A stretch of 64,000 nt of DNA, from the NCBI RefSeq assembly GCF_011058255.1, contig NZ_JAALFH010000067.1:307724-371723 (forward strand). The letters are read 5' to 3'. Below the pieces are notes generated by a model. It saw only the letters and a list, made by a program, of their open reading frames with translations. It did not search any database and was not told where the DNA came from. The stretch's first letter is position 1. Each line of letters begins with the position of its first letter. Source of the DNA: Thioalkalivibrio sp. XN8. Lineage in GTDB: Bacteria > Pseudomonadota > Gammaproteobacteria > Steroidobacterales > XN24. Shown here piece by piece: positions 42,728-48,800 of the stretch. The translations under genes and the position numbers were made by a program.

Positions 42728-43228
42728 TCAGCGCTTCCCGCCCCGACCCGATGAGCCCGGGCGGTCGTCGTCGTCGTCCCGCGACGAGGCGAAGTTGCGG
42801 AAGATCTCCTCCTGGAGGGCCTTCCAGCGCTGGAAGTTCTTCTGGGCGATACCCGCGACCATCCCCACCGGATCCAGTCCGACCACTTCCTTGACCCGGT
42901 CGCGCAACTGCTGCTGCTGGCTCATGAAGAGCCGCAGGCTCTGGTCCAGGTAGCCGCCGACCATGCCCTGCATGGCGCTGCCGTAGGAGCGGATGATCTG
43001 GGAGAGAAAGTCCCGGCTCATGATCGGTTCGCCGCTCTGCTCCTGCTCGCTGATGACCTGGAGCATGATGCTGCGGGTGATGTCCTTGCCGGTCTTTTTC
43101 TCCACCACCACGAAGTCGACCTTCTCGACGACCAGCCGCTTGATGTCGGACAGGGTGATGTACCTGCTTTCTTCCGTGTCGTAGAGACGGCGGTTGGGAT
43201 ACTTCTTGATGATCCTGGGCTCGCTCAT
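42728..43228 (-). CDS. phaR: Polyhydroxyalkanoate synthesis regulator PhaR
   Basis: DNA-binding repressor of PHA-granule genes, 166 residues. The N-terminal domain is diagnostic: IIKKYPNRRLYDTEESRYIT, then LSDIKRLVVEKVDFVVVEKKTGKDITR. The C-terminal half has a helical granule-binding type segment (MVGGYLDQSLRLFMSQQQQL) and a charged tail. The start MSEPRII at 43228 has GGAG 5 nt upstream; an upstream in-frame extension is rejected. No PHA synthase gene lies in this window, so its targets are elsewhere. Last gene of the dksA-gluQ-phaR direction. Confidence 0.93.
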   Translation of the reverse strand: MSEPRIIKKYPNRRLYDTEESRYITLSDIKRLVVEKVDFVVVEKKTGKDITRSIMLQVISEQEQSGEPIMSRDFLSQIIRSYGSAMQGMVGGYLDQSLRLFMSQQQQLRDRVKEVVGLDPVGMVAGIAQKNFQRWKALQEEIFRNFASSRDDDDDRPGSSGRGGKR

Positions 43229-43297
43229 GAGGGCTCCGTAATATGCGGCCGTAGGCTGGCCGGTGGCGGGCTGCTGACTCCTAAAGATAATCCATTT

Positions 43298-43309
43298 TGC
43301 AGTGCAGCT
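43298..43309. promoter_or_regulatory. Possible PhaR operator upstream of phaR
   Basis: TTGCAGTGCAGC, with a further TTTGCAG at 43315-43321, lies 70-93 bp before the phaR start and overlaps the gluQ stop. PhaR autoregulates in Paracoccus and Cupriavidus and prefers TGCA-rich repeats (recalled). The match is suggestive only. Confidence 0.35.
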
Positions 43310-44297
43310 AAAGCTTTGCAGGCGCCGGTATGCTGCGGCGCCCGGCCAGATGCTGCGGGTCCCAGCGGCCCACGGCCCAGGACCACTGCTCCGCCGGGGG
43401 CGCGCCGCGCAGCGCGTCGGGCGGCGCGAGCCCGAGACTGTCGAGCGCCAGCCACGCCAGTTCACCGGCGCGGCGCAGGTCCAGGGCCGCGGCGCCTGTC
43501 TGCTTGCTGAGCTTTTCGCCCGTCGGCGTGACGATCACCGGCAGGTGCATGTAGCGTGGCCTGGGCAAGCCCAGCAGCTGCTGCAGCCACAGCTGGCGGG
43601 GCGTGGAGTCGAGCAGGTCGATGCCCCGCACGATGTCGGTGATGCCGGCGTCTGCATCGTCCACCACCACCGCGAGCTGGTAGGCGATCAGGCCGTCCCG
43701 GCGGCGCACCACGAAGTCCCCGGTTTCGGTTTCGAGCTGCTGGCTGAACCAGCCCTGCAGGCGGTCGTCGATCCCGAGCTCGTCAGCCGCGGTCCGGACC
43801 CGCAGCACCGGGGCGCGATCGGTCCCGAGGCCGAGTTCCCGGCAGGTGCCCGGATACCGCCGGTCTTCCGGGCGCCCACGGCCTGCGTTGGCCGCGGCGA
43901 TGTCGGCCCGGCTGCACTCGCAGGCATAGGCCCAGCCGCTCTCGTGCAGACGCGTGAGGGCGGCGTTGAAGGCCTCCTGCCGGCAGCCCTGGAAGGCCAC
44001 GGGGCCGTCCCAGTGCAGCCCGAGAATATCCAGGGCGCGCAGGATGGCCTCGGTGGCGCCGGGCTGTTCACGCGGCGGATCGATGTCCTCGATGCGCAGC
44101 AGCCATTCCCCGCCGGCCGCGCGGGCGTCCAGCCAGCTGGCGGCGGCCGCCAGCAGGGAACCGAAATGCAGGGGGCCGGTCGGGGAGGGGGCGAAACGCC
44201 CGCGGTAGGCGCCGACAGGCGGCTCCGCGGGGCTTGGCTGGCCGGTGGGAAGCTCAGCGCTCGTCGCGGTCGCGATACTGCTTTTCGGCGAGCTCAC
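43308..44297 (-). CDS. gluQ: Glutamyl-Q tRNA(Asp) synthetase
   Basis: Truncated GluRS paralogue that attaches glutamate to queuosine at position 34 of tRNA-Asp, 329 residues. The HIGH-type motif is APSPTGPLHFGSL and the KMSKS equivalent GEKLSKQ. A CxC...YxxxC zinc set (CECS...RYPGTC) is present, and the anticodon-binding domain of GluRS is absent, as expected. The only good start is the GTG at 44297, inside the end of dksA (44-bp overlap). The queuosine gene queF lies two genes upstream, so the neighbourhood links Q synthesis and Q glutamylation. Confidence 0.93.
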   Translation of the reverse strand: MSSPKSSIATATSAELPTGQPSPAEPPVGAYRGRFAPSPTGPLHFGSLLAAAASWLDARAAGGEWLLRIEDIDPPREQPGATEAILRALDILGLHWDGPVAFQGCRQEAFNAALTRLHESGWAYACECSRADIAAANAGRGRPEDRRYPGTCRELGLGTDRAPVLRVRTAADELGIDDRLQGWFSQQLETETGDFVVRRRDGLIAYQLAVVVDDADAGITDIVRGIDLLDSTPRQLWLQQLLGLPRPRYMHLPVIVTPTGEKLSKQTGAAALDLRRAGELAWLALDSLGLAPPDALRGAPPAEQWSWAVGRWDPQHLAGRRSIPAPAKL

Positions 44298-45210
44298 GGC
44301 GCTCCTGGGCTTCGACCGTGAGCGTCGCCACGGGACGGGCTTCCAGGCGGCGCAGGCCGATCTCTTCGCCGGTCTCCGAGCAGAAACCGTACGTGCCGTC
44401 CTCGATGCGCTGCAGGGCCTGCTCGATCTTCTTCAGCAGCTTGCGTTCCCGGTCGCGGGTGCGGAGTTCGAGGCCGAATTCGGATTCCTGGGTCGCGCGA
44501 TCATTCGGATCGGGGAAATTAGCCGCCTCATCCTTCATGTGATGGACCGTGCGGTCGACTTCCTCCATCAGTTCCTGCTTCCAGGCGTCCAGGATCTGGC
44601 GGAAGTGCTCCAGCATCCGGTCGCTCATGTAGTCCTCGCCCGGGGCGGGCTGGTAGGGCTTGAACGACTTCAGCGGACCGGAGAATGCAAAGCTCGGTTC
44701 CGGGCGCTCGGGGTTGATGGCCAGCGGCTTCTTGGCGCGACTGCGGCCGGGGGCTCTCTTCTGTGCCGGCGCCTTCTTGGCGGCAGGCTTTCTCCTGCTC
44801 ACCGGCTTCTTGGCCGCAACCTTCTTCGCCACCACCTTCTTGGTCGCCGGCTTCTTGGCTGCGGCTTTCTTCGCCACCACCTTCTTGGTCGCGGACTTCT
44901 TCTTGCTCACCGGCTTCTTGGCTGCAGGCTTCTTGGCTGCAGGCTTCTTGGCCGCGGCCTTCTTTGCCGCAGGTTTCTTGGCAGCAGGCTTCTTCGCCGC
45001 CGGCTTGCTGGCCGCGGTTTTCTTCTTGCTGGGAGCCTTTTTGGCCGCGGTCTTCTTCTTGCTCGCGGCCTTCCTGGCGGGGGCCTTGCTGGCGGCAGCC
45101 TTGCGGGCGGCGGGCTTCCTGGCAGAGGTCTTCTTCACTGAAGTTGTCTTCTTCGCAGCAGGCGCCTTCTTGGTCGCCGTCTTCTTCTTGCTGCTCTTTC
45201 TCGCGGGCAT
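44254..45210 (-). CDS. dksA: RNA polymerase-binding DksA with histone-H1-like Lys/Ala tail
   Basis: 318 residues, about twice the length of E. coli DksA. The first ~165 residues are Lys/Ala/Pro repeats (AAKKPAAKK, KKVVAKKAAAKK), like bacterial histone-H1-type proteins and probably DNA- or RNA-binding. The C-terminal ~150 residues are DksA: YMSDRMLEHFRQILDAWKQEL, the coiled-coil tip with DPNDRATQESEFGLELRTRD, and the globular end GTYGFCSETGEEIGLRRLEARP. Only one of the four zinc cysteines remains, a low-cysteine DksA type known from other proteobacteria. GGGAGG 5 nt before the second ATG favours 45210 over 45213. Confidence 0.92.
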   Translation of the reverse strand: MPARKSSKKKTATKKAPAAKKTTSVKKTSARKPAARKAAASKAPARKAASKKKTAAKKAPSKKKTAASKPAAKKPAAKKPAAKKAAAKKPAAKKPAAKKPVSKKKSATKKVVAKKAAAKKPATKKVVAKKVAAKKPVSRRKPAAKKAPAQKRAPGRSRAKKPLAINPERPEPSFAFSGPLKSFKPYQPAPGEDYMSDRMLEHFRQILDAWKQELMEEVDRTVHHMKDEAANFPDPNDRATQESEFGLELRTRDRERKLLKKIEQALQRIEDGTYGFCSETGEEIGLRRLEARPVATLTVEAQERRELAEKQYRDRDER

Positions 45211-45344
45211 CATGGCCTCCCGGCGGATGGCGAAATCTGGTGCTGTGGGTTGGACCCGACGCGCGGTATCTGGCGCGCCCGGGTCAGCGATACAAACTGC
45301 GCTTTTTAGCCCGTTTCGCGTCCGGAGTCCAGCCCCGGGGGGGA

Positions 45345-45758
45345 TCAGGGCAGCTCCACCCGGACAGGCGGGGCCCAGCCGTCCTGGCGGTGCTCGGCGA
45401 CCACGGTGGTGTAAAGTCCACCGCGCACGTTGAAGATCGCCGTGACCCGCATGAAGCGCGGCGCCAGCCGGTCGCAGAAGTCCTGGAGCATCCGGTTAGT
45501 GACGGCTTCGTGGAACGCGCCTTCATCGCGGAAGCTCCACATGTAGAGCTTCAGTGACTTGAGCTCGACACAGCGCTCGTCCGGGACGTATTCGACGAGA
45601 ATCTCGGCGAAGTCGGGCTGGCCCGTCTTGGGACAGAGACAGGTGAATTCCGGGATCCGGATCCGGATGGTGTAGTCCCGTTCCGGGGAAGGGTTGGGGA
45701 AGGTCTCGAGGTCCCGGTTGGGCATGGCGTCAGCGCCCAGGGCGCGCAATTCAGACAC
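45345..45758 (-). CDS. queF: NADPH-dependent 7-cyano-7-deazaguanine reductase QueF
   Basis: Reduces preQ0 to preQ1 in queuosine synthesis, 137 residues, the short unimodular type. The active site is in [17 protein letters not shown] (nucleophile Cys about 42, Asp 49), followed by VELKSLKLY with the substrate-binding Glu. GTG start at 45758 with AGGAG 7 nt upstream. Transcribed divergently from smc across 133 bp. I looked for a preQ1 riboswitch upstream and saw none. Confidence 0.95.
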
Positions 45759-45891
45759 GATGGAACTCCTTTTGCGGGGGCCGCCCGGAGGCCGGCGCCA
45801 GGCCCGCAGCGACTGGAATTGAATGCGAATTACTTTACACTAGCCCGGTTGTGTCAATCACGCGGCGCGAACCGCCTGGAATCTCCCCTGC

Positions 45892-48800
45892 ATGCGTCTC
45901 AGCAAGATCAAGCTGGCTGGCTTCAAGTCTTTCGTCGACCCCACCACGATCCATTTCCCGAGTAACCTCGTGGGGGTCGTCGGGCCCAATGGCTGCGGCA
46001 AGTCCAACGTGATCGACGCCGTGCGCTGGGTGATGGGCGAGAGCTCGGCGAAGCACCTGCGCGGCGACGCGATGACCGACGTGATCTTCAATGGCTCGAC
46101 CGGGCGCAAGCCGGTCGGCACGGCATCCATCGAGCTCCTCTTCGACAACTCCGACGGCGCGGCGGGCGGCCAGTACGCCGGTTTCGGCGAGATCTCGGCC
46201 CGGCGCGTGCTGTCGCGCGACGGCACCTCGACCTATTTTCTCAACGGCGCCCGCTGCCGCCGCAAGGACATCACCAACCTGTTTCTCGGCACCGGTCTCG
46301 GCCCGCGCAGTTACGCCATCATCGAACAGGGCATGATCTCGCGGCTGATCGAGGCGAAGCCCGAGGAGTTGCGGACCTACCTCGAGGAAGCGGCGGGGAT
46401 TTCCAAGTACAAGGAGCGGCGGCGCGAGACGGAGACGCGGATCCGCCACACCCGGGAGAACCTGGAGCGGCTGAACGACCTGCGCGAGGAGGTCGAGAAA
46501 CAGATCCGCCACCTCCAGCGCCAGGCGCGGACCGCCGAGCGCTACCGCGAGATGAAGGCGGGTGAGCGGCGCCTGGAAGCCGAGCTGCTGGCGCTGCGGC
46601 TGGGTGGGCTGGAGGCGGAAGCGTCCCGGCACCGGGCGCTGCTGGCAGAGGGCGAGAACCGGCTGCAGGAAGCGGTAGCGGCGTTGCGCCGGGTGGAAGC
46701 CGAGCTCGAGGCGGCGCGGGAACGCCATCGCGAGGACAGCGAGGCGCTCAACGTGGTCCAGGGCGACTACTACCGCGTCGGCGCCGAGATCGCGCGGGCC
46801 GAGCAGTCCATCCAGCATGCCCGGGACTTGCGCCACCGGCAGGGGCAGGAACTGGAGCAGGCCGAGCAGGGGTTGCTCGAGATTCACCAGCACATCAACC
46901 GGGACCAGGACACGCTCGCAGAGCTGAACCGTGTCCTGGGAGAGCTCGGCCCGGAACTGGAGTCTGCGCGGAGCAGGGAAGCTGCCTCCGCCGAGGCGTT
47001 GCGCAGTGCCGAGCAGGCCATGCAGGACTGGCAGGCCGGCTGGGACGAGTTCAATCGCGAGGCGGCCAACGCCCGCGAGGTCGTGGAGGTGGAACGGGCT
47101 CGAATCGAGCAGCTCGACGGCCAGCTCGCACGGTTCGCGGATCGCCGGCGCCGCTTGCAGGAAGAGCACGGGCGGCTGCAGGGGGAGACCGGCGAGGTCG
47201 ATCTCGAGGCCATGGACCGGGAGCTCCAGCAGGCGCGGGAGCGCGAACAGGCGGCCCAGCAGCAGGACGAGGCCGTCCGGGACGAAATCCTCGCGCTGCG
47301 CGAGGAGGACGCCACCCTGGTCACGCAGCTCGACGAGGGGCGCAATGCGCTGCAGACGCTGCGCGGCACACTGGCTTCCCTGGAAGCGCTGCAACAGGCG
47401 GCCCTGGGGCGCGACGGCGGCAAGCTGATCGAGTGGCTGGACGGACAGGGCCTGGCCGGGCGCCCGCGCCTGGCCGAGAAGCTGGCGGTCGAGCCGGGCT
47501 GGGAGCGTGCCGTCGAGACCGTGCTGGGCGATTACCTCGAAGCGGTATGCGTGGAAGGCCTGGACGAGATCACCGGGGCACTGGACCAGCTGACCCAGGG
47601 CGCGGCGAGCTTCGTGGAGTTCAATGCGGGCGCCGGCGAGGCGGTCGGCGAGGACCTGCTCGCCCACAAGGTCCAGGGCGGCGCCGGCGCCCGGAGCCTG
47701 TTACGGGGCGTGCGGGCCGTCGAGGACCTTGGCGCCGCGCTCGCCCTGCGCAGCGACCTGCGGCCCGGTGAGTCCGTGATCACCCGGGACGGGATCTGGC
47801 TCGGGGCGAACTGGCTCCGGGTCAACCGGGCCGAGGATCCGCATGCAGGCGTGCTGGCGCGGGAGCAGGAGATTCGCGAGTTGCGCGCCTCGCTCGGCGG
47901 CACGGCCTACGAAGTCGAAGAACTTGTGGCCCGGCATGAGGAAGTCCAGGCCCGCCTGGCCATGCTCGAGTCCTCCCGCGAAGAAGTCCGCCAGCGGGCG
48001 GCGGAGGCCCACCGCAGCGCCGCCGGCCTGCAGGCGGGGCTCGACACGGCCCGGTCGCGCATGGAGCAGGCCGGCAACCGTCTCCAGGCGCTGGCCCAGG
48101 AGCTGGGGGAGATCGAAACCCAGCAGGCGGAAATGGAGGAGAGTGTCCGCCAGAGCCGGGCGCGGCTGCAGCAGGGTATCGACTCCATGAGCGATTTCGA
48201 GGCCCGCCGGCTCGCGCTGGAGGAGGAACGCGCCCAGCTCAGGGCGACCCTGGAGTCGGCACGCGACCAGTCCCGCGCGGACCGGGCTGCGGCACAGGAG
48301 ATCGCCATCCGGGTCGAGTCACGGCGCTCCAGCCTCGATTCGGCCAGCGTCAGCATGCAGCGCTTCCAGGAGCAGGTGGCACGCTTCAGCGCCCGCAAGC
48401 AGGAGCTCGAGCGGCAGCTCGACGCTGGGGTCGAGCCGCTCGCCGAGCAGGAGGCCAGGCTAGCGAGCATGCTGGCGGACCGGGTCCAGAGCGAAGAGCG
48501 ACTCGCCGCGGCCCGTCGCAAGGTCCAGGAGGTGGAGGCGACGCTACGCGAGCAGCAGGACAACCGCAGCGTGCGGGATACGACCGTGGCCGAGGCGCGG
48601 GAAAGCGTCGAGGCCGCACGACTGGCGGCGAACGAGAACCGCGTGCGGCTGCAGACCGCCGTCGAGCAGTTCACGGCCACCGGCTTCGAGCTCGAGACGC
48701 TGCGGGCCGAACTGCCCGAGGATGCAGCCATCCCGGACTGGGAAGAGCGCCTGGCGCAGCTGGCGACAAAAATCGAACGGCTCGGCCCGATCAACCTGGC

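Follow-up and report, generated by a model that had tools for sequence, protein, structure and literature searches.

A lysine-rich N-terminal tail on the only DksA found in Thioalkalivibrio sp. XN8, and its recurrence across Gammaproteobacteria

DksA is a textbook global regulator, and its best studied forms, those of Escherichia coli and Pseudomonas aeruginosa, carry no tail. E. coli DksA (structures 1tjl, 5vsw and 7khi) has a zinc site of four cysteines (C4), and its K139 touches the phosphates of ppGpp (PMC7676912, which also gives the ppGpp contact residues). The C4 site is not invariably needed for function: zinc-free DksA is already known, with functional examples in P. aeruginosa DksA2, R. 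sphaeroides RSP2654 and S. meliloti SMc00469 (PMC9239242), and the two-cysteine DksA2 coordinates no zinc and can substitute for DksA1 (PMC9213440). Long Lys/Ala/Pro repeats are in turn described in the Pseudomonas proteins AlgP and PhaF, where they are disordered, bind DNA and lie at the C-terminus of other N-terminal domains rather than on an RNA polymerase factor; the PhaF tail has been modelled around DNA (PMC3574117), and a fragment of the AlgP tail, built on a four-residue KPAA unit, binds DNA, as do KPAA peptides (PMC9239181). A similar composition with lysine-rich pentamers is found in Hc2 of Chlamydia and in the Burkholderia-type H1-like protein, which are separate DNA-binding proteins (PMC2848022). 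We describe here a DksA that joins a tail of this kind to a reduced zinc site.

The window, that is the whole stretch of 64,000 nucleotides analysed, contains on its minus strand an ORF of 319 codons (44254..45213) that opens with two ATGs side by side. Of the pair, the downstream ATG (45210) is the more probable start because a Shine-Dalgarno-like GGGAGG lies upstream of it at 45216..45221 (minus strand) and because the DksA of two relatives (L004 and L007) begins at the corresponding MPA; the GGGAGG and these MPA starts back the position that a previous reading, made from the sequence only, had given. The dksA coding sequence (44254..45210, minus strand) thus encodes 318 amino acids, while residues are numbered below from the longest ORF, starting at 45213. 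Its product scored above the Pfam cut-offs for DksA_N (120 bits), zf-dskA_traR (40 bits) and HC2 (62 bits) and reached 164.5 bits with TIGR02420 (dksA; cut-off 115.5), while with NF008045 (PRK10778, DksA) it scored 181.4 bits against a cut-off of 289. Pfam, TIGR02420, the alignment with E. coli DksA and the fold match all agree on the identity first proposed. The gene gives the sole PF01258 match and the sole DksA core match of its genome, in which two RelA/SpoT matches were found, and it shows the dksA-gluQ gene order used to recognise DksA. We take it to be this organism's housekeeping DksA, and no other DksA was found in the genome.

The core (44254..44664, minus strand; residues 184-319 and the stop codon) matches known DksA structures in its modelled fold. 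Residues 182-313 align with E. coli DksA without gaps and with 78 of 132 positions identical, and Foldseek searches with the modelled fold placed 1tjl, 5vsw, 7khi and 4ijj at the top. The DxxDxA motif of the coiled-coil tip is present at 44494..44511 (minus strand), where D235, D238 and A240 correspond to D71, D74 and A76 of E. coli. In the zinc-site region (44308..44382, minus strand), C278, T281, T299 and A302 replace the four cysteines; the positions read C-T-T-A, so that one zinc cysteine is left, as had been noticed from the sequence, and C278 is the sole cysteine of the whole protein. The protein thus falls outside the classical C4 subtype, and its DksA fold with fewer than four zinc cysteines places it among the zinc-independent forms, whose operation without zinc had been mentioned in the same reading and is documented for example by P. 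aeruginosa DksA2 (PMC9239242, PMC9213440). The model superposes on DksA2 (4ijj) with a TM-score of 0.82, normalised by the target. The two proteins share the fold, the C-x-x-T of the first pair and probably zinc independence, but DksA2 has two cysteines, Lys at 139 and no such tail on its chain of 136 residues, whereas the window DksA has one cysteine and Gln; moreover, DksA2 is a paralogue that is produced when zinc is scarce, while the window protein is the sole DksA.

Four of the five compared ppGpp contacts of E. coli DksA (R91, L95, K98 and R129) are retained; the fifth, K139, is replaced by Gln (Q303, 44305..44307, minus strand). This position was compared in 277 DksA sequences, some genes being included twice (192 of a class sample described below, 5 relatives and 80 named loci). 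Lys139 was found in 191 of the 193 C4 forms, and the two others (L246 and L248) represent a one-residue alignment slip, both reading CIDCK. The non-C4 forms carried Gln139 in 71 of 84 cases and Lys139 in 13; restricted to the class sample, the figures are 21 and 13 of 34. Gln139 is therefore confined to zinc-free forms, although many of those retain Lys. With just four to six switches of the zinc state on the tree described below, there are few independent events behind the link with zinc loss. This change at a ppGpp contact, seen in zinc-free forms only, offers a second testable point beside the tail.

The tail precedes this core (44719..45210, minus strand; residues 2-165) and is separated from it by a linker without repeats (44665..44718, minus strand; residues 166-183). 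Residues 1-165 contain 56 Lys, 49 Ala, 17 Pro and 9 Arg without a single Asp or Glu, for a net charge of about +65. The first 170 residues include eleven AAKK and seven AAKKP motifs, and the spacing of Lys and Arg is periodic at five residues (z = 8.9 against shuffled sequences). The sequence-only reading had described some 165 residues of AAKKP repeats of histone-H1-like character: the length and the Lys/Ala character hold, but the repeat is not pure, SKKK, ARK and VAKK units being mixed in. At the DNA level, repeats with periods of 8 to 45 bases are present, and their units have diverged to 65-80% matches. AlphaFold2, run on an alignment (A1) of 40 rows in which the tail was present in the first row alone, predicted a coil for the tail (pLDDT about 50) and a largely helical core (about 65-90); values below 50 were obtained for residues 162-180. 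The tail is probably intrinsically disordered, judging from this model. Its Pfam HC2 match (cut-off 40 bits) reflects similarity of composition, and the scores with the NCBIfam models for Hc2 (43.3 against 135 bits) and for the Burkholderia H1-like protein (50.5 against 80 bits) are both below cut-off.

A start downstream of the tail is unlikely, as no ATG occurs between Met2 and Met195, which is already inside the core, and the in-frame GTGs lack a good Shine-Dalgarno sequence. The family draw comprised seven genomes including that of the window; G002, which is 80% complete, gave weak paralogue matches only, and the tail was kept in the window genome and in all five relatives with a true DksA. 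Among these six genomes, identity was 47-69% in the tail and 79-96% in the core, while synonymous differences at identical residues were as frequent in the tail (37-59%) as in the core (34-51%). The pattern seems to be one of preserved composition with the sequence free to change. Long plus-strand ORFs, such as 44245-45141, run over the tail as mirror frames of its repeat, and a repeat artefact or shadow ORF is ruled out by the relatives and by codon use. The tail is real coding sequence, conserved at the protein level.

We then measured how widespread such tails are, a survey across Gammaproteobacteria having been proposed with the initial observation. Taking the class as Gammaproteobacteria, judging from the named relatives, 204 genomes were drawn; 193 of them had a DksA-like match at 1e-20 and 11 had none, and with the match of G059 left out 192 were fetched. 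Two second copies (L268 and L274) do not enter the counts. A tail was called when 50 consecutive residues ahead of the core contained 24% Lys or more, and shorter extensions are not countable. With the reading frame taken from the first start codon, the loosest count, 71 of the 192 genomes had a Lys-rich DksA tail, the status of three loci (L111, L262 and L264) that run off the stretch or contig being possibly misjudged. At least one member was tailed in 57 of 145 families, and five families were mixed. Raising the threshold to 30, 36 and 40% Lys left 56, 43 and 32 tailed genomes, respectively. An ATG preceded by a Shine-Dalgarno sequence was present before the tail in 53 of the 71 and absent in 18. 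With the strictest start, the Shine-Dalgarno-preceded ATG nearest the core, which could be assigned in 143 of the 192 genomes, an extension of at least 50 residues remained in 50; 47 of these were Lys-rich and 49 net positive. As a control, the Lys density of the tail call was reached by only 6 of 1690 other ORFs of the fetched loci (at least 150 amino acids, in any frame). Among the matches listed from the open-licence PubMed Central literature, none dealt with Lys-rich tails of DksA, and a widespread polycationic DksA tail, kept at the protein level, appears to be undescribed within those matches. In some loci of Steroidobacteraceae and similar bacteria, for instance Steroidobacter (L024), Povalibacter (L050) and three others (L032, L033 and L040), the extension has two parts, a Lys/Ala/Pro stretch followed by a short acidic one adjoining the core.

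The coexistence of the tail with a reduced zinc site had been put forward as a possibly meaningful combination. Among 80 named loci nearest to the window core, a set biased to the lineage of the window, 39 were tailed (34 of 45 non-C4 and 5 of 35 C4 forms). Woeseiaceae MAGs combine long Lys tails with a reduced zinc site, Methylohalomonas lacus (L093) and a Candidatus Tenderia MAG (L083) have a C4 site with a long Lys tail, and the listed Pseudomonas, Halopseudomonas and Halomonas loci have no tail. In the even class sample the tail was equally common with the C4 site (61 of 158) and without it (10 of 34; p = 0.34). We therefore reject a link between the tail and zinc loss in this sample, and this part of the earlier proposal is not supported. 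The two characters were also traced on quick FastTree trees of 197 short cores, from which the zinc columns and column 139 had been removed. The tail state requires at least 42 changes (38 with the first 92 columns), where shuffled labels require about 60; the zinc state requires 4 (6 with the first 92 columns), where shuffled labels require about 38. Gains and losses are indistinguishable in these counts. The 38 to 42 or more changes of the tail could also mean that selection on it is weak.

One alternative is that the tail has grown almost neutrally: repeat slippage would extend an N-terminus that tolerates it, and selection would purge just the very deleterious forms, acidic or hydrophobic. 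The repeats at the DNA level, the fast change of length and sequence among relatives, the many changes on the tree and the fact that E. coli DksA (151 residues) manages without a tail are all in line with this explanation. Several observations speak against it. The tail is not the product of fresh slippage, because its repeat units have diverged, and it was kept in the window genome and in all five relatives with a true DksA. Extensions of at least 50 residues were polycationic in 49 of 50 cases under the strict start. All 71 tails, from cores with a GC3 of 0.19 to 0.98, had more Lys than Arg, a count from which L111 and L151 drop out if the open frame is read from its first possible start. 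Over 76 tails (the 71 of the class sample and those of the 5 relatives), the share of AAG among Lys codons tracked core GC3 (rho 0.83), and the Lys fraction did not (rho -0.19, p 0.10). The codon shift carries more weight than this flat Lys fraction, because the tails were selected by high Lys, which narrows the range of the fraction. Base composition does have some effect on the tails, since the Arg fraction climbs with GC3 over the 76 tails (rho 0.37) and Lys/(Lys+Arg) drops as GC3 rises over the 71 (rho -0.32, p 0.006). Near-neutral growth is disfavoured by the charge and codon data, and we consider it unlikely.

We favour instead a nucleic-acid tether, because AlgP, PhaF and Hc2 share the make-up of the tail and because the AlgP fragment and the KPAA peptides bind DNA. 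By this analogy, nucleic-acid binding and tethering are most likely the role of the tail. The window DksA would fold without zinc, like DksA2; its N-terminal 165 residues would form a disordered polycation binding nucleic acid without sequence specificity, that is nucleoid DNA and perhaps nascent RNA; and the tail would raise the local concentration or the residence time of DksA by the transcribing polymerase. As a whole, the picture of a housekeeping DksA with a zinc-free fold, tethered near transcribing polymerase by a disordered polycation tail that binds nucleic acid, has in our view an even chance of being correct. It counts against this picture that 121 of the 192 genomes have a DksA without a Lys-rich tail, so that the tail is dispensable for basic DksA function. 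The spacing of Lys and Arg over the 76 tails peaked at five residues, as in the window, in 40 cases and at six in 12.

A Lys-rich tail can bind any polyanion, and rRNA promoters are the best known targets of DksA. The tail might mainly bind RNA or ribosomes and so link DksA with translation or with rRNA synthesis, not with the nucleoid; the sequence offers nothing that separates RNA from DNA binding, and we regard this variant as quite improbable. Other polyanions, such as polyphosphate or rRNA, would bind by the same chemistry as nucleic acid. Tails complementing one another between DksA and another H1-like protein were also considered and rejected: by hand count, a further HC2-like match was found in 17 of 71 genomes with a tail and in 18 of 121 without one (p = 0.13).

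Polyphosphate itself provides the main alternative, in which the tail is a sensor: polyphosphate accumulated in starvation would bind the lysines and sequester or retune DksA. Polyphosphate bound non-covalently to two proteins that have 9 Lys in 20 residues, but not to two that have 5 and 7 (PMC12077175); 9 Lys in 20 residues are reached by the window tail and by 43 of the 71 tails, and by none of the 121 cores of tail-less DksA. The similarly tailed AlgP associates with polyphosphate granules (PMC9239181), and E. coli polyphosphate accumulation is DksA-regulated according to a title cited in PMC12077175 and PMC9239181. The window genome has two matches to PPK1-type polyphosphate kinase (G000 C35:74657 and C33:554339). 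However, in a search for PPK1 alone, tailed genomes showed no excess of matches over tail-less ones (41 of 71 against 79 of 121, p = 0.35), and 30 tailed genomes therefore had no PPK1 match. Polyphosphate is thus rejected as the whole explanation, and as the main role of the tail we give it a low probability.

Extended from the window to the class, the tether reading would make DksA, in roughly 40% of the families sampled, a nucleoid-tethered stringent-response factor held on or near the chromosome, or in a polyanion condensate, by its H1-like tail; we advance this generalisation tentatively and with more doubt than the reading of the window protein itself. If it is true, the tail-less DksA of E. 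coli is only one of two common designs. With a polycationic tail that recurs in 57 of 145 sampled families over a wide range of base composition, the localisation, residence time and polyanion response of DksA may be a layer missing from the current model.

The surroundings of the gene are conserved. A queF-like gene (45345..45758, minus strand; PF14489, 110 bits) precedes dksA and a gluQ-like tRNA synthetase ORF (GluQ-RS; 43308..44297, minus strand; PF00749, 156 bits) follows it, and the order queF-dksA-gluQ was found in the window genome and in all five relatives having a true DksA. The longest gluQ ORF overlaps the 3' end of dksA by 44 bases (44254-44297), which suggests either translational coupling or a true gluQ start further downstream. 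A scan of 43100-45900 gave no promoter-like site and five terminator-like sites against 3.2 expected, all inside dksA on the opposite strand; the Rfam scan of the window gave one tRNA, away from dksA.

Other proteins with stretches of this composition were encountered. In the HC2 search of the 204 genomes, 49 had a match, and the DksA tail was among the matches in 19 (hand count from coordinates). The window genome also encodes (L144:1177-1647, G000 C27) a protein of 156 residues with a weak Phasin_2 match just below cut-off and an AlgP- or PhaF-like C-terminal tail of Lys, Arg and Ala. In six genomes (G153, G102, G016, G134, G178 and G179), HC2-like stretches lie in frames of about 830-890 residues and are perhaps tails on another conserved protein.
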